DNA from: Flavobacteriales bacterium | Lineage (GTDB): Bacteria; Bacteroidota; Bacteroidia; Flavobacteriales_D; Crocinitomicaceae | Assembly (NCBI GenBank): GCA_947449575.1 | Contig: CANFRV010000014.1 | Span: 1 to 64,000 of the forward strand | DNA length: 64,000 bases | Direction of reading: 5' to 3' | Shown here: one piece after another, positions 3,980 through 44,565 of the stretch | How positions within the stretch are numbered: position 1 is the first letter of the stretch | How the letters are laid out: the number at the start of each line of letters is the position of its first letter | Program-made: the position numbers and the translations under genes | Notes under the pieces: model-generated | Database searches by the model: none | What the model saw: only the letters and a program-made list of their open reading frames with translations | Told to the model about the DNA's origin: nothing

Positions 3980-5290
3980 ATGAAAAAAATATTACTTCTA
4001 ACAATTATCAGCTTGACAAGTTTATTCCAAACGACAAAAGCACAAAGCCTTTATTTCCCTCCACTAAGTAGCACGGCTCCTTGGGACACTATTTCTCCAT
4101 CTTCATTGGGTTGGTGCTTAAACGAAATTGACACCTTATATGATTATTTGCAGCAACAAGACACCAAAGGTTTTATTGTCTTAAAAGACGGAAAAATAGT
4201 TTTAGAAAAATACTTTGGAACTTTTACAAAAGATAGTTTATGGTATTGGGCATCCGCAGGGAAGACAATTACTTCCTTTTTAGTAGGCAAAGCACAAGAA
4301 GAAAATTATTTATCCATAACAGACACTTCATCCACATATTTAAGTGCAGGCTGGACAAATTGTTCAAGTACTCAAGAAGACAAAATCAAAATCAGAAATC
4401 AACTTACAATGACATCGGGACTTGACGATGATATAGCTGACAATCATTGCACCATTGACACTTGTTTAAACTATTTAGCTGACGCTGGCACACGTTGGGC
4501 ATATCACAATGCACCTTACACTCTTTTAGAAAGTGTTTTGACAACTGCAACTGCTCAACCTATTAATACATACACTTACAATAAACTAAAATTAAAAACT
4601 GGAATGACTGGGGCTTGGACTTTTGTTGATTACGATAATGTGTTCTTTAGCAAAGTAAGAAGTATGGCTCGCTTTGGTTTATTGATGCAAAATAACTGTA
4701 TTTGGAATACTGATACTTTATTATACGATACAACATACATCAACCAAATGACAAATACTTCACAAAGCCTTAATTTATCTTATGGTTATTTATGGTGGCT
4801 GAACGGTAAATCTTCTTACATGGTCCCAACTTCTCAAGTAGTTTTTTCGGGATCATATGCTCCCGCTGCTCCTACTGATATGTTTGCAGGACTTGGGAAA
4901 AACGGACAAATAGTAAGCATTTCCAAAAGTGCAGGTTTAGTAGTAATTAGAATGGGTAATCAAGTAAGTAGTGGAGAAGTTCCAACACAATTTTGCAACA
5001 GCATCTGGGAAAAGTTAAATGCTGTAATGTGCAACGGAACATCAATCAACGAAACTAATTCGAAAACAAAGGAAATCTCTATTTTTCCAAATCCTGCAAA
5101 TACCGAAATAAATATTGTCTTGCCTGCAAACGAAAATGCTCAAATTGAAATTTCAAATGCAATGGGTCAAGTTATCATTAAAGACCAAAACAAAAATACA
5201 ATTGACATATCTAATTTGACAAACGGTTTATACTTTATTTCAGTAAAACAAGGAAAACAAAGCTACACACAAAAACTAATCAAGCAGTAA
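3980..5290 (+). CDS. Secreted serine hydrolase (beta-lactamase/PBP4-like) with T9SS sorting domain
   Basis: The product is 436 residues: a signal peptide at 1-21 (cleavage near TKA-QS), a class C beta-lactamase-type domain at about 35-345, and a C-terminal Por secretion domain from about residue 365 (ISIFPNPANTEI...GLYFISVKQG...QKLIKQ). S92-A-G-K95 is the SxxK nucleophile and general base motif; YHN near residue 175 fits the YxN motif. These enzymes act on esters, D-amino-acid peptides or beta-lactams; the substrate here is unknown. The protein should leave the cell by type IX secretion and stay on the surface or be released. It is alone between element copies A and B, in the same orientation as the other modules. 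Confidence 0.85.
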   Translation: MKKILLLTIISLTSLFQTTKAQSLYFPPLSSTAPWDTISPSSLGWCLNEIDTLYDYLQQQDTKGFIVLKDGKIVLEKYFGTFTKDSLWYWASAGKTITSFLVGKAQEENYLSITDTSSTYLSAGWTNCSSTQEDKIKIRNQLTMTSGLDDDIADNHCTIDTCLNYLADAGTRWAYHNAPYTLLESVLTTATAQPINTYTYNKLKLKTGMTGAWTFVDYDNVFFSKVRSMARFGLLMQNNCIWNTDTLLYDTTYINQMTNTSQSLNLSYGYLWWLNGKSSYMVPTSQVVFSGSYAPAAPTDMFAGLGKNGQIVSISKSAGLVVIRMGNQVSSGEVPTQFCNSIWEKLNAVMCNGTSINETNSKTKEISIFPNPANTEINIVLPANENAQIEISNAMGQVIIKDQNKNTIDISNLTNGLYFISVKQGKQSYTQKLIKQ

Positions 5291-8481: not shown

Positions 8482-9237
8482 ATGATGCGTTGTATAATAA
8501 TTGAAGATGAGCTAAATGCAAGAGAATTTATTGAAAATTTAATACACAGGTATTTTAGTTCAAAAATAAGTGTTTTAGCTGCTTGCTCTTCAATTTCTGA
8601 AGGAGTTGAAGCAATAAAAAAGTTTAAACCGGACTTAGTCTTTTTGGATATTCAAATGCCAAATGAAAGTGGATTCAAATTGTTTGAGTATTTTGACAAT
8701 ATCAAGTTTGAGGTTATTTTCACAACCGCACACAAAGAATTTGCAATAGAAGCTATAAAGCATTCTGCCCAAGATTATTTACTAAAACCTATTAGCCAGT
8801 TAGACTTGTCAGATGCATTAAAACGACTAGAAAAAAAGCATCAAAGAAATAATGGCACACCAGAAATTGGTAGAGTAATTGAGCAGTATAACGCTGATCC
8901 CTTTAAATATGGTAAAATTGCTTTGGCTACAGAAAAAGGTTTCATTTTAGAAAAAATTGGAAATATCTTATTTGCTGAAGCGCAAGGTAATTATACTAAA
9001 ATCTTCACTTATGACGACCGAACTATACTGGTATGTAAAACACTCCGTATCATTGAAGAAATGTTGCCTGAGAAATCTTTTTTTAGAATCCATAAATCGT
9101 ATGTTGTAAATTTGAACTACATTACCAAATACGATAAATCAATTGGTTTATTTGTTGAGTTAATAAATGGAATTAAGATACCTGTTTCAGTTAGAAACAA
9201 TACAGGACTAATAAATGCAATTACTTCTAAAATTTAG
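8482..9237 (+). CDS. LytTR-family response regulator
   Basis: The product is 251 residues. A receiver domain occupies residues 1-120, with acidic pocket E8/D9, phosphoacceptor D56 in LVFLDIQMP, the FTTAH switch threonine and the LLKPI lysine. A LytTR DNA-binding domain follows (about 150-250; ILFAEAQGNYTKIFT...FFRIHKSYVVNLNYI). Such regulators bind pairs of short direct repeats upstream of target genes. It overlaps the kinase gene by 23 bp, so the two form one signalling unit. The likely targets are the small exported-protein genes downstream, but this is inference from position. Confidence 0.92.
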   Translation: MMRCIIIEDELNAREFIENLIHRYFSSKISVLAACSSISEGVEAIKKFKPDLVFLDIQMPNESGFKLFEYFDNIKFEVIFTTAHKEFAIEAIKHSAQDYLLKPISQLDLSDALKRLEKKHQRNNGTPEIGRVIEQYNADPFKYGKIALATEKGFILEKIGNILFAEAQGNYTKIFTYDDRTILVCKTLRIIEEMLPEKSFFRIHKSYVVNLNYITKYDKSIGLFVELINGIKIPVSVRNNTGLINAITSKI

Positions 9238-12184
9238 CTTTTTACTTTATTTAACGTTGCGTTGTCATATAGTTGCAGCCCAGTGTTTTCCTTCTGTTCA
9301 TTTAACCATAAATGATGGATTACCTTCCAATGCCGTTTACTGTGTTTTAAAAGACTCAAGAGGTATTATTTGGATTGGAACCGATGCTGGCTTGGTAAAA
9401 TACGACGGTTTTCAATTCAAAACTTTGACCAAGAAAAATGGTCTTTCAGGTAATTTTATTCGTGACATCAAAGAGGATAAAAAAGGAAATTTGTGGATTG
9501 CTTGCTATGGTGATGGCTTGACAAAATTCGATGGAAATAAATTTACAAACTATTCTACAAAAAATGGACTTGTACATACTGAAATACGTAAGTTGTATTT
9601 TGACCAATTTCAGAAACTTTGGATCGGAACTGAGCGCGGACTCTCCGTATTTTTCAAAGATAAATTTTACAGCTATAACACCGAGAAATTTGATTTATAC
9701 AATCGATTTCAAGTCATGCAGTTTTGGGAAGAAAACGAACAATTGTATTTCCTAAGTCGAACGCATGGCTACTACAAGGCTCAAGTTAGTTCAGGCAAGC
9801 TAAAGTGCGACAGTTTAGGGAAATTGTATTCTCAGATATTCTATTTTAAAATCGGGAAAAACAAATATTTTTCAAATCACAATGGTTTGCATATTGACAC
9901 CAGCGACAATCATTTCCCAAAAGATTCAATATATGCCAAACCATTGAATCCCAACATTATTTGGGACATTGCACAAGCAAATCTTGGTACATTATTAGCT
10001 GCTAATTGCGTTTATTGCACCTCGGGAGGCTTGCTGCTATTGAAAAATGGAAAAATTGAAGATATTTCCGCGAAATATGGAATTAAATCGAAGCAGTTAT
10101 GGTCATTTTACAAAGACAATTCAAAATCTAAAATTTGGATAACAACCTTAGATGATGGTTTATACATTATTGATGATGTGCCAGAATTTTATAAAACGAC
10201 TGCTTCTAAAATGTTGGATTATTGGGAGGATGGAAAAGTTAAAATATCAGTATTAGCAAATGGGTTGTCCATTGAGCAATCGAATGGTCAAAAGTTTACA
10301 ATTCCAAATAAACAATTTTACTCGAAGATTAATAAAAAACAGTTGCTTTATATCCGAACCAAACCAGATTTAGACAAGATAAAAACAAAAGTATCTCAAG
10401 TTCCAATTAACCAAAATAACTTCCAATTAAAAAAAGTTCAAGTTCATAATGGGAAAATTTATATTTCGTCCAATGGAGGCTTTTTTGAATTGGCAATGAA
10501 TGGACAAATTCTTCAAGCTGTTAACCTAGAAACGGATCATTTTATTGTGCAGAATAATCACATTATTTATTACTGTCCTGATGGAAATTTAGCAAGTTTA
10601 AGTAAAACCAATGACAATAAATGGCTCATTGAATTTACTCAACCCAATTCAGCTGATGAACCTAAAAACACTATTAAAATTGTCAAACTAAAAAATACTT
10701 TTTTATTTGCATCTTCACTCTATGGTATTTTCAGCTTGAAACCAGAACAAGTTGCAGCAAAAAAAGTAAAACTTCCCTCTACTGAAGATGAGAAAATAAA
10801 GGATATTTGCTCCGATGGAAAAAATCAATTTTACCTGGTCAATAGCAGCAATGAGCTACTTGGTTTTACTTGGTTGAATGGACAAGTACGGCTAACCAAA
10901 AGCATAAATAATTCGAAAATTGAAGGAGAAACAATTCTAAAACTGGCGCACGATGGGAAACATTTGTTTGTGCTTACAAACAGAGGATTAAACGTTGTTT
11001 TTCCAAACCAAAATACGAGCATATTTAGAGATAAAGAACAGGGATTTGTATTTAATTCTGTTACCTATTTCAATGTCCATCAAGGAAAATTAATGGTTGT
11101 AACAGATCTTGGAACATATTATTGGAATATTGCGGGCTTGATAAAAGCCAATTCACAAAAAGAAGGTGTACTTCTATCGTGTAAAAAAGTAGCTGAAAAT
11201 GGAAAAATCCCTTCGTTTATTATTTCATCTTCCCAACAATCAATAGTCATTCCACTAGTTAAAACCTGTTTGTACCACGGACGAAAAATGATTTTTGCGT
11301 ACAGTTTAAATGGCAAAGATTGGACACCAATTAATGGCTCTGAGATTTCTTTAAATCAATTGGAAAGTGGTAATTACACCATTAAAATTCGCCAAAAAGA
11401 TTTATTTTCTGGTAAAACAATTGTGTATTCTTTGGCAACAATCAGCAAAGAAAAACCATTTTGGAATCAAGGTTGGTTTGTCGTAGTCGCTATGTTGTCA
11501 TTTAGTGGAATTGTATTTTTGATATCCAATTGGAGACTGCGAAAGATTAGAAATAGGGAACGTCAAAAATCCGAATTACTCAAACGTATTTCAGAGACCA
11601 AATTAGAAGCGCTGCAATCGCAAATGAATCCGCATTTCATTTTCAATTCGCTGACTGCCATTCATTCCTTTATCATTAAATCCGACGTGGACAATGCCTT
11701 AGCTTATATGGATAAATTTTCAAAGTTAACGCGTCAAACATTGGAGTTTTCTTCCATGATGCACGTGTCGCTTATAGAGGAAGTGGAATACCTGTCACAC
11801 TTTATTGCATTGGAAAACATGCGCTTTGGTGACAATGTTGTAACACATTTTGAATTAGGCGAACTTGATTCACGAAAAATAAAAATTCCACCGTTATTGA
11901 TACAACCTCTTGTAGAAAATGCGTTTGAACATGGTTTTACGGATAGAAATAAAAAGTACCAGCTTTTTCTAAATTTCACAGAAGAAAGCGACCAACTATG
12001 CATCACCATTTCTGATACTGGTGAAGGTTTCTTGGACACAACTCCAAAACCAGCGTCTAAAGCAATCAACATTATTCGTGAACGCTTAAACCTCATTGAT
12101 TCACAACTCCTTACAAAATTCTCATTTACCCGAGAAAACAACTTAACTGTTGTACGTTTTTACCTGCCTTTGGTAATTACATGA
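9215..12184 (+). CDS. Two-component beta-propeller sensor histidine kinase (LytS/PF06580 type)
   Basis: The product is 989 residues. A signal peptide covers about 1-22. Periplasmic regulator-propeller repeats follow (GLPSNAVYCVLKDSRGIIWIGT, then GLSGNFIRDIKEDKKGNLWI, GLVHTEIRKLYFD), filling the region to about residue 680. A Y_Y_Y-like beta-sandwich ends near 740, and one membrane segment spans about 752-773. The cytoplasmic part is a His_kinase domain, with the phosphorylatable His in MNPHFIFNSL near residue 807, and an ATPase domain (PPLLIQPLVENAFEHGF, SDTGEGF). It senses an unknown periplasmic signal and phosphorylates the overlapping LytTR regulator. Its 3' end is repeated at 13006-13095 and 14744-15412. 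Confidence 0.92.
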   Translation: MQLLLKFSFLLYLTLRCHIVAAQCFPSVHLTINDGLPSNAVYCVLKDSRGIIWIGTDAGLVKYDGFQFKTLTKKNGLSGNFIRDIKEDKKGNLWIACYGDGLTKFDGNKFTNYSTKNGLVHTEIRKLYFDQFQKLWIGTERGLSVFFKDKFYSYNTEKFDLYNRFQVMQFWEENEQLYFLSRTHGYYKAQVSSGKLKCDSLGKLYSQIFYFKIGKNKYFSNHNGLHIDTSDNHFPKDSIYAKPLNPNIIWDIAQANLGTLLAANCVYCTSGGLLLLKNGKIEDISAKYGIKSKQLWSFYKDNSKSKIWITTLDDGLYIIDDVPEFYKTTASKMLDYWEDGKVKISVLANGLSIEQSNGQKFTIPNKQFYSKINKKQLLYIRTKPDLDKIKTKVSQVPINQNNFQLKKVQVHNGKIYISSNGGFFELAMNGQILQAVNLETDHFIVQNNHIIYYCPDGNLASLSKTNDNKWLIEFTQPNSADEPKNTIKIVKLKNTFLFASSLYGIFSLKPEQVAAKKVKLPSTEDEKIKDICSDGKNQFYLVNSSNELLGFTWLNGQVRLTKSINNSKIEGETILKLAHDGKHLFVLTNRGLNVVFPNQNTSIFRDKEQGFVFNSVTYFNVHQGKLMVVTDLGTYYWNIAGLIKANSQKEGVLLSCKKVAENGKIPSFIISSSQQSIVIPLVKTCLYHGRKMIFAYSLNGKDWTPINGSEISLNQLESGNYTIKIRQKDLFSGKTIVYSLATISKEKPFWNQGWFVVVAMLSFSGIVFLISNWRLRKIRNRERQKSELLKRISETKLEALQSQMNPHFIFNSLTAIHSFIIKSDVDNALAYMDKFSKLTRQTLEFSSMMHVSLIEEVEYLSHFIALENMRFGDNVVTHFELGELDSRKIKIPPLLIQPLVENAFEHGFTDRNKKYQLFLNFTEESDQLCITISDTGEGFLDTTPKPASKAINIIRERLNLIDSQLLTKFSFTRENNLTVVRFYLPLVIT

Positions 12185-12314
12185 AACCCACTTATTTCCT
12201 GAATATTAACGGTTACATTAATTTATGCACGTAGAATAATCCACTTTTTTTTATTGATTGATTTGAGTGAGATTTGTTGAAAAATAAGTAAAAATTCAAT
12301 CAAAATTTAAACAA

Positions 12315-12818
12315 ATGAAAAAGGTATTACTAATAATTTTTAACATAATTCTATTAAGCTCTTGTCAAGTATTTAAAACAAGTACTTCAAAATCTATTGA
12401 CATTAAAATTTCAGGAGTCACACAAAAACCAACGATTGTTGATTTAAAAGTAGACGAAAAGAAAATTACAGCGTCAGTAACCTCCTTAATAGCTTCAACA
12501 CAAGATGTTTTTCAGCAACAAGCTATTTCAGAAGCATTAAAAAATTGCAATTGTGATATAATTGTGGAACCGACATTTGAATCTATCAGAAAAGGTAAAA
12601 AAACAACGACATCTGTTACAGGTTATCCCGGTTATTATATAAATTTTAGACCAATGACCTTAGAAGATACAACCTTTATAAAAATTGCGAACACTACGTT
12701 AGATAAATCAAAAGTAAAAGAAACTACTTTGGGTAAAAAACGAAAAAGTGGACCTATTATAATTGCCACATTGGGAGGGGTTGTTTTTATGGGTTTTCTT
12801 TTAAGTATCATAAATTAA
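12315..12818 (+). CDS. Putative lipoprotein with C-terminal membrane segment
   Basis: The product is 167 residues. The leader MKKVLLIIFNIILLSSC has a lipobox (LSSC), so it should be lipidated at Cys17. The middle domain carries a CNCD motif near residue 76 and a V-P-T-F-E strand pattern. A glycine-rich hydrophobic segment (PIIIATLGGVVFMGFLLSIIN) ends the protein. The family is not recognised. It follows the kinase by 130 bp, behind a conserved spacer that recurs upstream of 13205 and 15537, so it may be under the control of the LytTR regulator. Confidence 0.7.
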   Translation: MKKVLLIIFNIILLSSCQVFKTSTSKSIDIKISGVTQKPTIVDLKVDEKKITASVTSLIASTQDVFQQQAISEALKNCNCDIIVEPTFESIRKGKKTTTSVTGYPGYYINFRPMTLEDTTFIKIANTTLDKSKVKETTLGKKRKSGPIIIATLGGVVFMGFLLSIIN

Positions 12819-13005
12819 AGGACCAAAATAAATTTTAGCATTTGAGATGAAATGGTTGAATTAATCAAAACGTATGAAAATTTTGTTTTCACTCCCATTT
12901 AAGTTTTTTTTGGAAATACTGACACCAAAGATGATACTCCAATTATTATAATGGATGTTTTAAACTCCTCAGGAAAATTTAATAATGATTTACTTCACGA
13001 ATAAG
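12819..13005 (+). pseudogene. Gap with a decayed coding scrap
   Basis: Between the lipoprotein gene and the kinase-tail repeat there is no intact gene. Frame +1 of 12908-13004 reads FGNTDTKDDTPIIIMDVLNSSGKF... to a TAA, which looks like the C-terminus of a lost protein; stops interrupt it upstream. No promoter or terminator stands out. Confidence 0.35.
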
Positions 13006-13204
13006 AACCACAACTTTATGCAAAATTCTCATGTACCCGAGAAAACAATCTAACTGTTGTAAGTTTTTACCTGCCTTTGGTGTTCCAATAAAACACGATT
13101 ATTTTCTAATTATAAACGGTTACATTGATTGCTCAACGTTAGCTAAATCGCTTTTTTGTTTTGGTGAAATAGAGTGAGATTTGCTGGAATGAAACAATAA
13201 AAAA
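13006..13204 (+). repeat. Second copy of kinase 3' tail plus downstream spacer
   Basis: From about 13006 the sequence repeats the end of the kinase gene (ACAACT...AAAATTCTCAT.TACCCGAGAAAACAA...CTGCCTTTGG, as at 12105-12175). It then repeats the spacer that follows it (ATTATAAACGGTTACATTGATT, as at 12213-12228), and finally a GAGTGAGATTTG block like 12266-12277. Only the last 20 or so kinase codons are kept. It stands directly upstream of the VanZ-like gene. Confidence 0.75.
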
Positions 13205-13660
13205 ATGAAATCTACAATTTACAATAGATCCATACTTCTTAATGTCATTCTCCCATTGTTTATAGGAGGTTTCATTTATCTGCTGTTTAGGAGTGAGAGA
13301 TTGATACTGTTTGACTGGATAAGATTTTTAGGCTTTAAAGAAAGTTTAGACTTTTTGCGAGATCATTTTAGTATTGTTAGATCTTTCATGCCGAATTGGG
13401 TTTTGTTTTCTCTCCCTGACGGCCTTTGGGTGTATTCATTTACTTCTGCTATAATTATAATTTGGAATGATGATAGAAAAATTTTGATTATGCTTTTATC
13501 TATTTCGTTAATATTTGGACCAGCAGTTGAACTTCTGCAATTTTTCAAACTATTTAAAGGAACATTTGATAGTATGGATTTGGCAATAACAATTGTTTCT
13601 TTTACGCTCAGTATTTTATTTAATTTAAAAATTAATCAATATGAAAATCAAGTATGTTAA
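13205..13660 (+). CDS. VanZ-like integral membrane protein
   Basis: The product is 151 residues with about four membrane segments (residues 12-28, 68-85, 93-110, 121-140). The core LPDGLWVYSF...FGPAVELLQFFKLFKGTFDSMDLA has the spacing of VanZ-like proteins, in which a Glu and Gln on one helix precede an Asp-containing loop. The biochemical role of VanZ-like proteins is mostly unknown; the founding member gives weak teicoplanin resistance. The last 20 bp overlap the start of 13641. A diverged copy of its C-terminus reappears at 14150-14254. Confidence 0.6.
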   Translation: MKSTIYNRSILLNVILPLFIGGFIYLLFRSERLILFDWIRFLGFKESLDFLRDHFSIVRSFMPNWVLFSLPDGLWVYSFTSAIIIIWNDDRKILIMLLSISLIFGPAVELLQFFKLFKGTFDSMDLAITIVSFTLSILFNLKINQYENQVC

Positions 13661-14123
13661 ATTATTGTCAAGTATTTTGACAGTTGGTGTTTTTTTATTT
13701 CTAGCATTTGGAAGCGAAGAATCTAATGAAACAAAAACAAATGTAGAAAAAATCGATATTAACAACGATAAAGATGTAAAAAGTGCAATAATAGGAAAAT
13801 GGAATTACACAGACTTGGAAAGTTCTGATTCAGAAAACAAATATTACAGAATTGAAATTACAGATTCAACAATTAAATTTAATTGGAAAATTGGTTGGAG
13901 CAATTCGTTTGATGATAATAAGACTGAAACTTATGACTATTCTCTCGGGGAAGTAAAATCTGGGGAAAATGAGGGGAAATATGAACGATTTATTCTCATT
14001 GAAGGTGATATTTCGCTCGGCTATAGAATAATTGATCCCTTAATTATTAGAAATAATTATGATGGTGCATTAGGAATATATAGGCCAGGTGCTGTTTATC
14101 ACTTTGAAAAAGGTTGGAAATAG
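13641..14123 (+). CDS. Shared-leader exported protein 1, possible lipocalin-like domain
   Basis: The product is 160 residues. The leader MKIKYVKLLSSILTVGVFLF is almost identical to that of the protein at 14235 and similar to that at 16100. It ends in LAFGSEES, where a lipobox Cys would be expected at the Ser. A low-complexity linker (residues 28-48) precedes a beta-rich domain beginning IIGKWNY, a pattern often seen at the start of lipocalin-like domains. The rest is strand-rich and ends VYHFEKGWK. The start overlaps the VanZ-like gene by 20 bp. Its function is unknown. Confidence 0.65.
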   Translation: MKIKYVKLLSSILTVGVFLFLAFGSEESNETKTNVEKIDINNDKDVKSAIIGKWNYTDLESSDSENKYYRIEITDSTIKFNWKIGWSNSFDDNKTETYDYSLGEVKSGENEGKYERFILIEGDISLGYRIIDPLIIRNNYDGALGIYRPGAVYHFEKGWK

Positions 14124-14149
14124 ATATATCATTAAAAATTTATTGATAA

Positions 14150-14254
14150 AAAAACAGTACTGATATTACAATCAAGTCTATTATATTTTTTGCTTTTATT
14201 CTCAGTATATTATTTAATTTAAAAATTAATCAATATGAAAATCAAGTATGTTAA
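14150..14254 (+). pseudogene. C-terminal remnant of a second VanZ-like gene
   Basis: After a TAA at 14147-14149 the frame reads KNSTDITIKSIIFFAF, then ILSILFNLKINQYENQVC and a stop. The last 18 residues are nearly identical to the end of the VanZ-like protein at 13205, and the preceding 16 are a diverged version. As in the first copy, its end overlaps the ATG of the next shared-leader gene (14235) by 20 bp. The two junctions are 594 bp apart. A tandem duplication with loss of most of the second VanZ gene explains it. Confidence 0.75.
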
Positions 14255-14612
14255 ATTATTGTCAAGTATTTTGACAGTTAGTGTTTTTTTATTTCTAGCA
14301 TTTGGAAGTGAAGAATCTAAAAGTTCTAATAATAATAGTGAGGAAAATAAAATTGAGGAAAATAAAAAAACTGAGTCGCAATCAAATTCACTTTCGAATT
14401 CGGAGAAAACAGATGAGAAATCAGATTATTCTCAGGAAGAAAATCATCAGAATATGAAAGAAGCAATGGAAAATATTAGTAATCCAACTTATTGTAGTTT
14501 ATGTAAAGGAACAGGTATTGAAGAAAACAGAGCTCGTGGCACCGGATTTGGTGATGATGAATACGGTCGTATTTGTCCTATGTGCAATGGAAGAGGTGAA
14601 AGGTCTTATTAA
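14235..14612 (+). CDS. Shared-leader exported protein 2 with CxxCxGxG zinc motif
   Basis: The product is 125 residues. Residues 1-30 repeat the leader of the protein at 13641 with one or two changes. A Ser/Asn/Glu/Lys-rich linker fills about 30-85. The C-terminal 40 residues carry CSLCKGTG and CPMCNGRG, one pair of the CxxCxGxG repeats that bind zinc in DnaJ, so a small zinc domain is likely. Nothing in the C-terminal part resembles its neighbour, so leader and body have been recombined. The gene is followed by a strong terminator at 14654. Confidence 0.7.
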   Translation: MKIKYVKLLSSILTVSVFLFLAFGSEESKSSNNNSEENKIEENKKTESQSNSLSNSEKTDEKSDYSQEENHQNMKEAMENISNPTYCSLCKGTGIEENRARGTGFGDDEYGRICPMCNGRGERSY

Positions 14613-14653
14613 AAGCTTATGATTTTACACTGCCTATTAATCAAATAAAAAAC

Positions 14654-14690
14654 AGAGGGCTTCTTGTATTAGTAGTCCTCTATTTTTTAT
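14654..14690 (+). terminator. Intrinsic terminator after 14235
   Basis: AGAGGGCT at 14654-14661 pairs with AGTCCTCT at 14674-14681 (one G-T pair), with a 12-base loop, then a T-rich run (TATTTTTTAT). It closes the transcription unit that starts before 13205. Confidence 0.7.
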
Positions 14691-14743
14691 CTTTTGATTT
14701 TTAAACCACCCTTTTTAAGTAACTTAATGACTTCTATTTAAAC

Positions 14744-15395
14744 TCAATTTTTGATCATTCAATTGGAGACTGCGAAAGATTAGAAATCGGGAACGTCAAA
14801 AATCCGAATTTCTCAAACGTATTTCAGTGACCAAATTAGAAGCGCTGCAATCTTAAATGAATCCGCATTTCATTTTCAATTCACTGACTGCCATTCATTC
14901 CTTTATCATTAAATCCGAAGTGGACAATGACTTAACTTACATGGATAAAATTTCAAAGTTAACGCGTTAAACATTGGAGTTTTCTTCCATGATACACTTG
15001 TCGACTATAGAGGAAGTGGAATGGAATACCTGACACACTTTATTGCATTGAAAAACATGCGCTTTGGTGACAATGTTAAAACACATTTTGAACTAGGCGA
15101 ACTTGCTTCACGAAAAATAAAAATTCCACCGTTATTGATACAACCTCATTTAGAAAATGCGTTTGAACATGGTTTTACGGATAGAAATAAAAAATACCAG
15201 CTTTTTCTAAATTTCACAGAAGAAAGCGACCAACTGTGCATCACAATCTCTGATACTATTGAAGGTTGCTTGGACTCAACTCCAAAACTAGCGTCAAAAG
15301 CAATAAACATTATTCGTGAACACCTCATTGATGCACAAATCCTTGCGAAATTCTCATATATCCGAGAAAACAACCTAACTGTTGTGCGTTTTTAA
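14744..15395 (+). pseudogene. Third copy of the kinase 3' end: truncated, with stops
   Basis: The segment matches 11510-12166 of the intact kinase gene at high identity, from the inner end of the membrane segment through the His box and ATPase domain. MNPHFIFNSL is kept, but the frame carries TAA after CAATCT near 14853 and TAA near 14968. There is also a 6-bp insertion (GGAATG) near 15022 and several missense changes (for example GEG to IEG in the ATPase G box). It cannot make a kinase. Its downstream spacer also matches that of the intact gene and leads into the gene at 15537. Confidence 0.9.
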
Positions 15396-15473
15396 CTGCC
15401 TTTGGCGTTTCAATGAAACACGATTATTTCTTGATTATTAACGTTTATCCAAATTACAAAACGCAGGATAAAC

Positions 15474-15501
15474 CACTTTCTTTTTTTGAGAAAAGAAAGT
15501 G
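15474..15501 (+). repeat. Perfect 11-bp hairpin in the spacer before 15537
   Basis: CACTTTCTTTT at 15474-15484 pairs with AAAAGAAAGTG at 15491-15501 across a 6-base loop. The matching spacers at 12240-12277 and 13147-13176 keep only the outer CACT/AGTG-like bases and the following GAGATTTG. It may end read-through from the kinase pseudogene or mark a regulator site ahead of 15537. Confidence 0.45.
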
Positions 15502-15536
15502 AGATTTGTGGGGGATAATAGATAAAAAAGAATAAT

Positions 15537-41538: not shown

Positions 41539-42516
41539 ATGGAAGAATTAAATCGAATAGAAGCACCTTTAAGTGATTTACTAGGTATTAGATATCCCAT
41601 CATAATGGCTCCCATGTTTTTGGTTTCCAACACAGACATGATAATAGAAGCCGTTAGAGCTGGAATAACCGGAGCAATTCCCGCCTTAAATTATAGAACA
41701 ACAGAAGAATTAAGGACTGCCATTCGCTTGATTCAATCAGAAGTTACAGGACCGTTTGGAATAAATTTAATCGTTAGCAAATCCAATTTTCTCTACAAAG
41801 AGCAATTGAAAGTTTGTTGTGAGGAAAAAATCTCTTTTATCATCACTTCCCTAGGTTCTCCCGAAGAAACTATTAATGAAGCTCACAAGGTTGGTGTCAA
41901 AGTTTTTTGTGATGTTACGGATACTACGTATGCTAAAAAAGTAGAAGAATTAGGAGCAGACGCAGTAATCGCCGTTAATAAAGAAGCAGGTGGGCATGCA
42001 GGTAATTTATCCTATAAAGAATTGATCCCGCAATTAAAAAAAGCAGTTTCCATACCCGTAATTTCTGCAGGAGGTGTTGGATCAGGAGCTGGACTTAAAA
42101 ACATGCTTGAAATTGGCGCGGCAGGAGTTTCTATGGGGAGTCTCTTCATTGCTACTATAGAATCAGCCGTTTCAGAAGAATATAAACAGGCTTGTGTAGA
42201 TTTTGGAGCAAAAGACATTGTCATGACCACCAAATTATCAGGAACACCTTGTTCTGTCATTAAAACTCCCTATGTAGATAAGATTGGCACGTCACAAAAC
42301 TGCATTGAAAGAATTCTTTCTAAAAGTAAACGATTGAAAAAATGGTTCAAGGCATTTACATTTTACCGAGGAATGAAAAACCTAGAAAAAGCAGCATTCG
42401 GAGCGACCTATAAAACCGTTTGGGTGGCAGGTCCAAGCATTGAATATACCAAGGAAATACGAAAAGTAAGAGAAATAGTTAAACAACTTATTGCGGAATA
42501 TGAGCAAGCCAAATGA
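41539..42516 (+). CDS. Nitronate monooxygenase family flavoprotein
   Basis: The product is 325 residues, an FMN TIM barrel. RYPIIMAPMFLVS at the N-terminus, DAVIAVNKEAGGHAG (the catalytic-His loop), PVISAGGVGSGAGL and AAGVSMGSLFIA (phosphate-binding) are the family blocks. Members oxidise nitronates or act as enoyl-ACP reductase-like reductases; the exact substrate is not clear. It overlaps the DUF4442 gene by 17 bp, so the two are one operon and the pair may act on acyl compounds. The 225 bp upstream hold no gene. Confidence 0.85.
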   Translation: MEELNRIEAPLSDLLGIRYPIIMAPMFLVSNTDMIIEAVRAGITGAIPALNYRTTEELRTAIRLIQSEVTGPFGINLIVSKSNFLYKEQLKVCCEEKISFIITSLGSPEETINEAHKVGVKVFCDVTDTTYAKKVEELGADAVIAVNKEAGGHAGNLSYKELIPQLKKAVSIPVISAGGVGSGAGLKNMLEIGAAGVSMGSLFIATIESAVSEEYKQACVDFGAKDIVMTTKLSGTPCSVIKTPYVDKIGTSQNCIERILSKSKRLKKWFKAFTFYRGMKNLEKAAFGATYKTVWVAGPSIEYTKEIRKVREIVKQLIAEYEQAK

Positions 42517-42982
42517 GACTTTTTCGATTAAGAAAATGCGGTGGTTATTATTTTTAATGGGGATTTTCAAAATTCCGTTGATAGGCTATGTTTGTCCAAA
42601 ATTACTTGAAATAAATGACGACTCAGTAAAAGTGAAAATTCGACTTCGTAGAAAATCTAGAAATCATCTTAAATCAATGTATTTTGGCGCATTAGCGGTT
42701 GGAGCAGATATCGCTGGAGGAATACATGTCTTTTATTATTCAGAAATAATGGGTAAAAAAGTTTCCTTTGCATTTAAAGGAATGAAAGCGGATTTTATAA
42801 AACGCGCAGAATCAGACGTTACTTTTGAAAGTAATCAAGGTCACGTAATAAAAGCTGGGATTTTGGAAAGTATTGAAACAGGAGAAAGAGTGAATAAAAC
42901 AATATTGGTGACTGCATTTGATTCGAACAATGAAGTGGTGGCGACTTTTGAAATGATTTCATCACTGAAGGTGGTTGTATGA
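42500..42982 (+). CDS. DUF4442 hotdog-fold (thioesterase-like) protein
   Basis: The ATG at 42500 is preferred to the TTG at 42491. The product is 160 residues and fits the DUF4442 hotdog family: YFGALAVGADIAGGIHVFYY is the hotdog helix region, and SFAFKGMKADFIKRAESDVTF is a typical strand pair. It is probably an acyl-CoA thioesterase or acyl-binding protein. It overlaps the flavoprotein gene upstream. The last 39 bp are part of a 50-bp direct repeat that reappears at 43881-43930, behind the beta-lactamase gene. The repeat includes its stop codon, and ATGA is shared with the beta-lactamase start. Confidence 0.8.
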   Translation: MSKPNETFSIKKMRWLLFLMGIFKIPLIGYVCPKLLEINDDSVKVKIRLRRKSRNHLKSMYFGALAVGADIAGGIHVFYYSEIMGKKVSFAFKGMKADFIKRAESDVTFESNQGHVIKAGILESIETGERVNKTILVTAFDSNNEVVATFEMISSLKVVV

Positions 42983-42993
42983 AAACGATTTTT
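42944..42993 (+). repeat. 50-bp direct repeat, left copy
   Basis: This 50-bp segment covers the last 39 bp of the DUF4442 gene and 11 bp beyond. It matches 43881-43930 at 48 of 50 positions (differences CTGAAG/CTTAAG and GAAAAC/GAACAC). The two copies enclose the class D beta-lactamase gene. Confidence 0.95.
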
Positions 42994-43863
42994 GGACGAT
43001 ATCAAGGTGTACTATTTATTTGGGTCTCTTTGCACGTTGGTATAAAAACATTGATCGATAAGCCTAAAATAATACTTTTGATTATAGCCGCTTTTGGAAT
43101 CACAGCTTTTGGACAAAAACGAACGATAGAAATTCGTAACGACTTTAAAAAGTATTACGACCAATTTAAGGTTGAAGGTTCTTTTGTGCTTTACGACCCT
43201 CAAACGAACAAGTGTGTTTTTTACAACCCAGACCAGTATGAGCAAACTTTTACACCTGCTTCGACTTTTAAAATATGTAATTCGCTTATTGGCCTTGAGA
43301 CAGGAGTGATTAAAGACGAGAATTTTATTATTTCTTGGGACAGCGTAAATCGACAAAACCCAAAGTGGAATAACGACCAAGACTTAAAAACCGCTTTCAA
43401 AAATTCAACCGTTTGGTATTATCAAGAGCTTGCAAGACGAGTTGGAAAACATAAAATGAAATCCTGGTTAAAGAAGGTAAAGTATGGTAACAAATGTACT
43501 TCAGGAGGTATTGATAAGTTTTGGCTAACTGGCGGTCTTCGTATTTCACCTAAACAACAAATTGACTTTTTACAGCGGCTTCACGACAACCAACTCCCTT
43601 TTTCACAGCGTTCAGTTGACATTGTAAAAAACATAATGATTGTAAAGGATACATTGGACTATGTAGTAAGAGCGAAAAGCGGTTGGGGTGGACAAGACAA
43701 CAAAGATATTGGTTGGTATGTCGGCTATCTGGAGACAAAAGATCAGGTTTATTATTTCGCTAACTGCATTCAATCAGCTGACTTAAACAATGAGGGCTTT
43801 GCAACTGCAAGAATAGACATTGTTTATCAAATCCTTAAAGAACTTCAACTGATTGACGAATGA
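42979..43863 (+). CDS. Class D (OXA-type) beta-lactamase
   Basis: The product is up to 294 residues. All class D motifs are present: S95-T-F-K98, S143-T-V145, Y169-G-N171 and K233-S-G235, plus the FWLTGGLRISPKQQIDFL helix typical of OXA enzymes. It should hydrolyse penicillins through a Ser-bound acyl enzyme. ITAFGQ at 41-46 is the signal peptide cleavage site. The first five codons (MKTIF) belong to the flanking 50-bp repeat, so the original start may lie further in, for example at a TTG near residues 18 or 25; the assigned ATG overlaps the upstream stop. Both flanks carry the repeat, so the gene arrived as an insertion. Confidence 0.92.
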   Translation: MKTIFGRYQGVLFIWVSLHVGIKTLIDKPKIILLIIAAFGITAFGQKRTIEIRNDFKKYYDQFKVEGSFVLYDPQTNKCVFYNPDQYEQTFTPASTFKICNSLIGLETGVIKDENFIISWDSVNRQNPKWNNDQDLKTAFKNSTVWYYQELARRVGKHKMKSWLKKVKYGNKCTSGGIDKFWLTGGLRISPKQQIDFLQRLHDNQLPFSQRSVDIVKNIMIVKDTLDYVVRAKSGWGGQDNKDIGWYVGYLETKDQVYYFANCIQSADLNNEGFATARIDIVYQILKELQLIDE

Positions 43864-43880
43864 GAATTCCTGCTGCTACC

Positions 43881-43930
43881 ACTTTTGAAATGATTTCATC
43901 ACTTAAGGTGGTTGTATGAACACGATTTTT
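43881..43930 (+). repeat. 50-bp direct repeat, right copy
   Basis: This is the second copy of 42944-42993. It contains the last 13 codons of the DUF4442 gene including its stop, but stands alone. It ends exactly at the edge of the minus-strand phosphoribosyltransferase gene, whose stop codon follows at 43930-43932. Before the insertion the DUF4442 and phosphoribosyltransferase genes would have been adjacent, tail to tail. Confidence 0.95.
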
Positions 43931-44565
43931 TAAACTACTTTCTCAAATTGGTGAATTTCTTTCAAGAGTTTGATCACTTGTTCATCACTCACGTGTGAAA
44001 AATCATTGTAGTGATGTCCTACACCAATAAAAATATCCGGTATATAGGGACAAATGAATTCATCCACTACATTTTTTATTTTAGCAGCAGCCTCTTTTGA
44101 AGAAACAGGAACTGCTACTACGATTTTTTTTACATTTTTATTTCTTAGCATTTGAATAGATGACAGTAACGTATTGCCCGTAGCTGCTCCATCATCTACA
44201 ACTATTACTATTTTATTTTCTAAATTCAACGGTTTACGATTCTCCATAAAGAGTTGATATCGCTCTTGTAAATCCTTTCGAATTCTTTTAATGCTATCCT
44301 TTATATAGGAAGGAGGGACATTAAAACTCTCATCTATGGTGTAATCTTCCAAACCAACTGCTCCGATAGCTAATTCAGGATTTGAGGGGTAACCAATCTT
44401 CTTTGTCATCAACAATTCGAGGGGGAAATTATATTCTTTAGCAATATCATACGCTATTGGAACTCCACCACGCGGGATTGCTAAAACAACTCCTGATATA
44501 TTTCTATATTTTTCCAAATACGGAATAAGCACAGATGCCGCATTCGATCTATCTTTAAAGTACAT
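43930..44565 (-). CDS. Phosphoribosyltransferase-family protein
   Basis: The product is 211 residues. IVIVVDDGAATGNTLL is the PRPP-binding loop of type I phosphoribosyltransferases, and VLAIPRGGVPIAYDIA and LMTKKIGYPSNPELAIGAVG are typical of the stand-alone group found widely in bacteria, often next to stress enzymes. The substrate is unknown. The 257 bp between its start and 44823 hold no gene. It converges on the DUF4442/beta-lactamase unit. Confidence 0.88.
   Translation of the reverse strand: MYFKDRSNAASVLIPYLEKYRNISGVVLAIPRGGVPIAYDIAKEYNFPLELLMTKKIGYPSNPELAIGAVGLEDYTIDESFNVPPSYIKDSIKRIRKDLQERYQLFMENRKPLNLENKIVIVVDDGAATGNTLLSSIQMLRNKNVKKIVVAVPVSSKEAAAKIKNVVDEFICPYIPDIFIGVGHHYNDFSHVSDEQVIKLLKEIHQFEKVV

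Follow-up and report, generated by a model that had tools for sequence, protein, structure and literature searches.

A class D beta-lactamase gene of cassette origin between two copies of a gene 3' end in a Flavobacteriales genome

Introduction

Insertions with a long, variable target duplication were first noted in Helicobacter pylori, where the inserted genes often belong to restriction–modification systems (PMC3031569, PMC1643837); for the descriptions themselves, these two papers cite Nobusato et al. 2000 and Furuta et al. 2010. As far as could be found in the literature, no settled mechanism has been put forward for such insertions. The locus described here lies in a window of 64,000 nucleotides (the whole stretch of DNA that was analyzed, to which unprefixed positions refer). 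It resembles the H. pylori cases in having a gene without a transposase flanked by long direct repeats of its target, with a length that varies by locus, and in having been detected through comparison of related genomes. It differs from them in its cargo, a cassette-derived beta-lactamase gene here and a restriction–modification system there; in its target, which here is the 3' end of a gene; and in that the genome used for comparison (G002) has an insert of its own at the site.

Other described systems share some of these features. Integron cassettes can occupy secondary sites (attG), and the gene studied here does take the form of a cassette in loci L063–L067, standing alone behind a stop codon in L067; unlike an attG insertion, the window locus has an R'' box only, no attC, and a 50-bp duplication besides. 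Unusual cassettes in which a partial attI copy replaces attC (PMC12901181) likewise have two copies of the same upstream sequence around a gene without attC, but the repeat there is the attI1 or attI2 of a mobile integron and here the end of a chromosomal gene. Elements that integrate into gene 3' ends by means of a tyrosine integrase are flanked by direct repeats of that end (attL/attR), of which one completes the gene while the native end is displaced to the far side, as in our locus; in contrast to them, the insert here has a single cargo gene and no integrase, and the other loci involve unrelated target genes. The window locus shows neither an element-borne integrase nor a common att core, the marks of an integrative element, and it has none of the short target duplication, terminal inverted repeats and transposase that mark a transposon.

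A class D beta-lactamase gene between two copies of a gene end

Two segments of the forward strand, 42944–42993 and 43881–43930, are identical at 48 of 50 positions, with a start-to-start spacing of 937. Of the two differences, one (42967 G versus 43904 T) is silent in a Leu codon of the preceding DUF4442 gene and the other (42984 A versus 43921 C) falls directly past the stop of that gene. Chance can be excluded as the source of the pair, since only about 1e-16 pairs of such quality are expected within 2 kb in the window, and so can a genome-wide repeat family, as these are the only two copies in the 3.53-Mb assembly (a draft of 69 contigs with an estimated contamination of 4%).

The left copy completes the DUF4442 gene (42512–42982, forward strand; PF14539 at 46.5 bits, cut-off 25) and contains its stop codon, 42980–42982. 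This gene is kept in 10 of the 12 genomes of the genus. The right copy is an orphan with no gene of its own, and its last base is also the first base of the stop codon (43930–43932) of a convergent phosphoribosyltransferase gene (43930–44565, reverse strand; PF00156 at 61.2 bits). Behind the left copy, a 47-bp segment (42994–43040, forward strand; exact boundary uncertain) leads to a cassette-like part; a search of the genus and of 399 genomes of the order gave no relative of this segment.

The single open reading frame between the copies (42979–43863, forward strand, 294 codons) is intact. A curated family score (NCBIfam NF012161, 280.7 bits against a cut-off of 250) and active-site motifs read from the translation (STFK, STV, YGN, KSG and WYVG) predict a class D beta-lactamase; the protein also matches PF00905, and its best solved-structure match is 6nhs. 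The open reading frame starts within the left copy, at an ATG (42979) that shares bases with the DUF4442 stop (ATGA), so that expression through translational coupling would be possible. Similarity to relatives begins only at about residue 28 (43060), and the start used by cassette relatives corresponds approximately to a TTG at 43051; the class D gene may have gained a ready-made start codon at the DUF4442 end. Neither a transposase nor a recombinase is encoded by the neighboring open reading frames, and the repeat list for the locus contains no inverted repeat at the two ends of the insert.

The orphan copy as the native chromosomal end

Within the genus, the nearest genome is G002, which shares 97% identity in the DUF4442 region and lacks the class D gene. 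Its DUF4442 end is present in a single copy (L023 1172–1223), which agrees with 43881–43932 at 52 of 52 positions and with the left copy at 48 of 50. Because this single end matches the right copy over 52 bp, the orphan is the native end, which has kept its place beside the phosphoribosyltransferase gene on the chromosome, and the copy that completes the gene is the changed one. Both changes in the left copy spare the DUF4442 protein.

These comparisons bear on an earlier note, written from this DNA alone. Its account of the 48/50 repeat pair, of a true DUF4442 end on the left and an orphan abutting the phosphoribosyltransferase stop on the right, of an intact class D enzyme between them and of the absence of a nearby transposase agrees with what we found. 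So does its reading of an insertion between the two genes with the repeat at its boundary: it had named copies unrelated to that boundary, or a gene fixed in relatives, as findings that would speak against it, and G002 shows neither.

In G002 the gap between the DUF4442 and phosphoribosyltransferase genes is filled by a different gene (L023 1344–2306), with junctions CGATTTTTTA|CATA and ATGC|TTTTTTAACTAC. Joined over the T run, these junctions give the window junction beside the orphan copy, one A apart. Originally, only about 11 bp separated the two stop codons, and the two inserts lie within 2–3 bp of each other; selection against breaking either gene could explain how two independent inserts came to sit so close together. 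In other members of the genus, the DNA behind DUF4442 varies from genome to genome. The gap gene of G002 has a weak match to Polyketide_cyc2, and the phosphoribosyltransferase gene there has decayed (L023 1344–2484).

A gene cassette of distant Bacteroidota

The class D protein is most similar to proteins from other orders: it is 81% identical to a protein from a Cytophagales MAG, 76% to one from a Ferruginibacter MAG and 73% to those of Flavobacteriia and Bacteroidales MAGs. The class D genes of its own genus are just 55%–61% identical and sit at other loci, behind msrAB-like genes in three genomes (gene name by eye). Taken together, identities of 73%–81% to other orders versus 55%–61% within the genus indicate that the gene is of foreign origin and was acquired horizontally. 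We found no relative of the gene in viral contigs, and every match in plasmids was below 60% identity (best about 41%).

The relatives also indicate the form in which the gene travels. At loci L063–L067, GTTAGCAGYAACAATA stands before the class D gene and GCTAACA behind it, after the stop codon and a short spacer; they make up the R' and R'' boxes of an integron attC. In L064, L065, L066 and L067 the gene has the form of a cassette with an attC; L064 is a cassette array with several attC sites, and L067 has a lone, complete class D cassette placed immediately after the stop codon of a gene, at G|TT, without duplication. As far as can be judged from these loci, the class D gene circulates among distant Bacteroidota as an integron-type gene cassette.

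What the window retains of such a cassette is its 3' end (43861–43880, forward strand), comprising the stop codon and an R'' box (GCTACC for GCTAAC); 17 of its 20 bases match L063 and L064. The retained sequence reaches the R'' box only, and the right repeat copy begins at the next base. The cassette sequence of L063 likewise ends at R''. Neither a hairpin search nor a covariance model detected an attC at the window locus, including one formed by the 50-bp copy. We conclude that the class D gene in the window is, by its sequence, derived from a cassette and has lost its attC. It thereby shows how a beta-lactamase gene from the cassette pool of environmental Bacteroidota can come to lack its attC and be fixed next to a core gene. 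A cassette start at G|TTGGTAT (43041, with GTTGGTAT at 43040–43047 as the R' box) fits by eye; as its alignment scores are no higher than those of shuffles, we do not claim it.

Strong flanking repeats at other class D loci were confined to L063 and L089, and that of L063 is a 373-bp module with a recombinase fragment. The remaining 29 class D loci had no flanking repeats or short, weak matches of 20–48 bp. Across L063 3634–7215, cassettes (the class D gene and, by eye, toxin–antitoxin-like pairs) are parted by modules of up to about 820 bp, each consisting of an N-terminal tyrosine recombinase fragment and its upstream region.

Other 3'-end duplications in the genus

We scanned 0.89 Mb of the 3.53-Mb genome, plus extra stretches of G002, for direct repeats at a spacing of 0.2–6 kb. 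Few were found, and several of them share the layout of the class D locus. On contig C5, a small lipoprotein-like gene (by eye) separates the 3' end of a gene (69839–70822) from its copy (83 bp, 89%), and the orphan lies 8 bp behind the stop of a convergent gene; the polarity is reversed here, the copy on the gene side being the native-like one. An orphan on C2, located behind a Fic-like gene (by eye), retains two blocks that together amount to about 60 bp of the end of a gene, and on C5 of G002 about 170 bp of a gene end are copied across a gene of 1362 aa. Within the window, the 3' end of a histidine kinase gene (9215–12184) recurs as 181 bp at 13009–13189 and as a decayed 763 bp at 14747–15509, with small genes between these fragments (9215–15509), possibly as a result of repeated insertions at the 3' end of one gene.

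Counted by position, the gene/orphan repeats involve the 3' end in six cases, the 5' end in one and an internal site in one (C2, about 105 bp from the 3' end), these counts being small and part of the G002 sequence having been picked because of its hits. The 3'-end duplications that flank genes here and in G002 span about 60–760 bp, and no junction motif shared among them was seen. With several such duplications and a dozen genomes at about 70%–97% identity, the genus is well suited to a study of the mechanism.

How the insertion may have arisen

Going by sequence features, the class D locus is best filed as a further case of insertion with long, variable target duplication, because the repeats vary in length, the junctions have no common motif, there is no transposase and the cargo is a single gene. 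The target is single-copy in the related G002, which has no class D gene and holds another insert in the gap; the flanking direct repeat exceeds transposon duplications and is variable (50 bp here, about 60–760 bp elsewhere); and the insert carries no transposase. The earlier note was right that 50 bp is too long for a transposon duplication, yet duplications that are long and variable form an established class in themselves. The locus appears to add one more example of a familiar, if poorly understood, mode by which bacteria acquire single genes.

Our preferred account, to which we give a probability of roughly 0.6, is that homology in DUF4442 anchored one end of the incoming DNA and that the other end was joined illegitimately, a join that we infer. 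The donor would have been DNA of a related strain with a slightly different DUF4442 end followed by the class D gene. On the left side, homologous recombination in DUF4442 would have anchored this DNA; on the right, the R'' box of the cassette would have been joined without homology to the recipient chromosome, 39 bp before the DUF4442 end, leaving the native end behind as the orphan. An anchored left side and an illegitimate right join would thus yield a changed left copy, a native orphan and intact neighbors, and selection may have kept the event because DUF4442 and phosphoribosyltransferase genes both stay intact. Some observations count against this join. The C5 locus shows the opposite polarity; G002, with its gap occupied, does not provide a clean empty allele; a donor with DUF4442 and then the class D gene was found neither in the genus nor in 399 genomes of the order; and no microhomology could be demonstrated, nor any import boundary, divergence from G002 showing no change toward the junction within DUF4442.

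The same final sequence is predicted by a single crossover of a circle carrying the class D gene and a copy of the 50-bp DUF4442 end. We think this rather unlikely as the actual course of events. The left copy carries both differences and the right copy neither, as if the crossover had fallen in the first 23 identical bases, but 50 bp, with the first mismatch after only 23 identical bases, is little homology for homologous recombination to act on. The circle itself might have arisen in another strain through homologous recombination that excised the same repeat-flanked unit, an origin that we regard with similar doubt, as it requires an earlier repeat-flanked unit and leaves the first duplication unexplained. 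The earlier note had proposed either such a crossover or an unfamiliar cassette mechanism. A cassette derivation is borne out and the polarity fits a circle crossover; its suggestion of a new mechanism found no support, given that the attC is lost, that one-sided illegitimate integration predicts the same sequence and that long target duplications have been described before.

It is improbable, in our judgment, that the integron integrase of the genome, or another tyrosine recombinase, cut at the R'' box of the cassette and took the end of DUF4442 for a secondary site. In favor of this are the start of the right copy, which falls exactly at the R'' box, the cassette sequence of L063, which also stops there, L067, with the same gene behind a stop codon at G|TT, and the presence in the genome of both attC sites and an integron-type recombinase (see below). 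A cassette inserted at a secondary site, however, keeps its attC complete without duplicating anything, as L067 shows, and here the attC is missing; moreover, the insert has no integrase and the junctions at other loci share no motif. Action at the R'' box is suggested solely by where the right junction lies. We give equally little credence to the broader idea that in this genus single genes move about as small units and enter gene 3' ends through the integron recombinase at R'', each time bringing along or creating a replacement end. If a recombinase did act at R'', the 50-bp repeat would be the mark of a new insertion route for cassettes outside attI and attC. A tandem duplication of DUF4442, after which the incoming gene replaced most of the second copy and left a 50-bp remnant, seems very improbable: the 181-bp and 763-bp histidine kinase remnants in the window could be relics of tandem copies, but two events would be required, no further DUF4442 remnant lies between the repeat copies, and the genus offers no tandem DUF4442 (one gene in nine genomes and two matches on separate contigs in G006). 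Fusion of two strain variants into one contig by the assembler is hardly to be expected either. The draft state and estimated contamination of the assembly would allow it, and the orphan copy is identical to the sequence of a relative; against it, the copies differ, so that a shared word would not by itself be enough to join them, reads must have covered both junctions, and 3'-end duplications recur at other loci and in another assembly, that of G002.

attC sites and recombinases in the genus

A covariance model built from the attC sites of the cassette relatives was used to scan the genus, and it detected attC sites in 11 of the 12 genomes, many of them in arrays. In the present genome (G000), an attC lies behind a gene for an integron-type tyrosine recombinase (C17, about 84014–85441 and 86041–86174). 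With 227 bits, the C17 protein stays below the integron-integrase cut-off of 265; for the broader recombinase/integrase family NF040815 it reaches 221 bits, where the cut-off is 220. Arrays of attC sites resembling chromosomal integrons are common in the genus (G000, G002, G007, G005, G010 and G001), with sites of about 85 and about 138 nt. On C17 of G002, an integron-type recombinase stands beside operon-like genes of ubiquitin type (JAB, E1 and E2, by eye; L104 4980–12265), and attC sites follow further along.

Behind a gene of unknown family (1108–2214), the window has a complete attC-like site at 2216–2356 (model R1, E 5e-7), and would therefore hold an integron-type cassette there. At 2700–2790 of the window, as at 4910–5010 and 6390–6480 of L063, AACATTTAGCSNRCTAGC is followed by a terminator-like hairpin, a combination also seen in an L063 module that carries recombinase fragments. 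Finally, a repeat of up to about 200 bp is interspersed at G000 C2 87564–87762 and in many other places in G000, G002, G001 and G007, its copies being mostly about 85%–95% identical.
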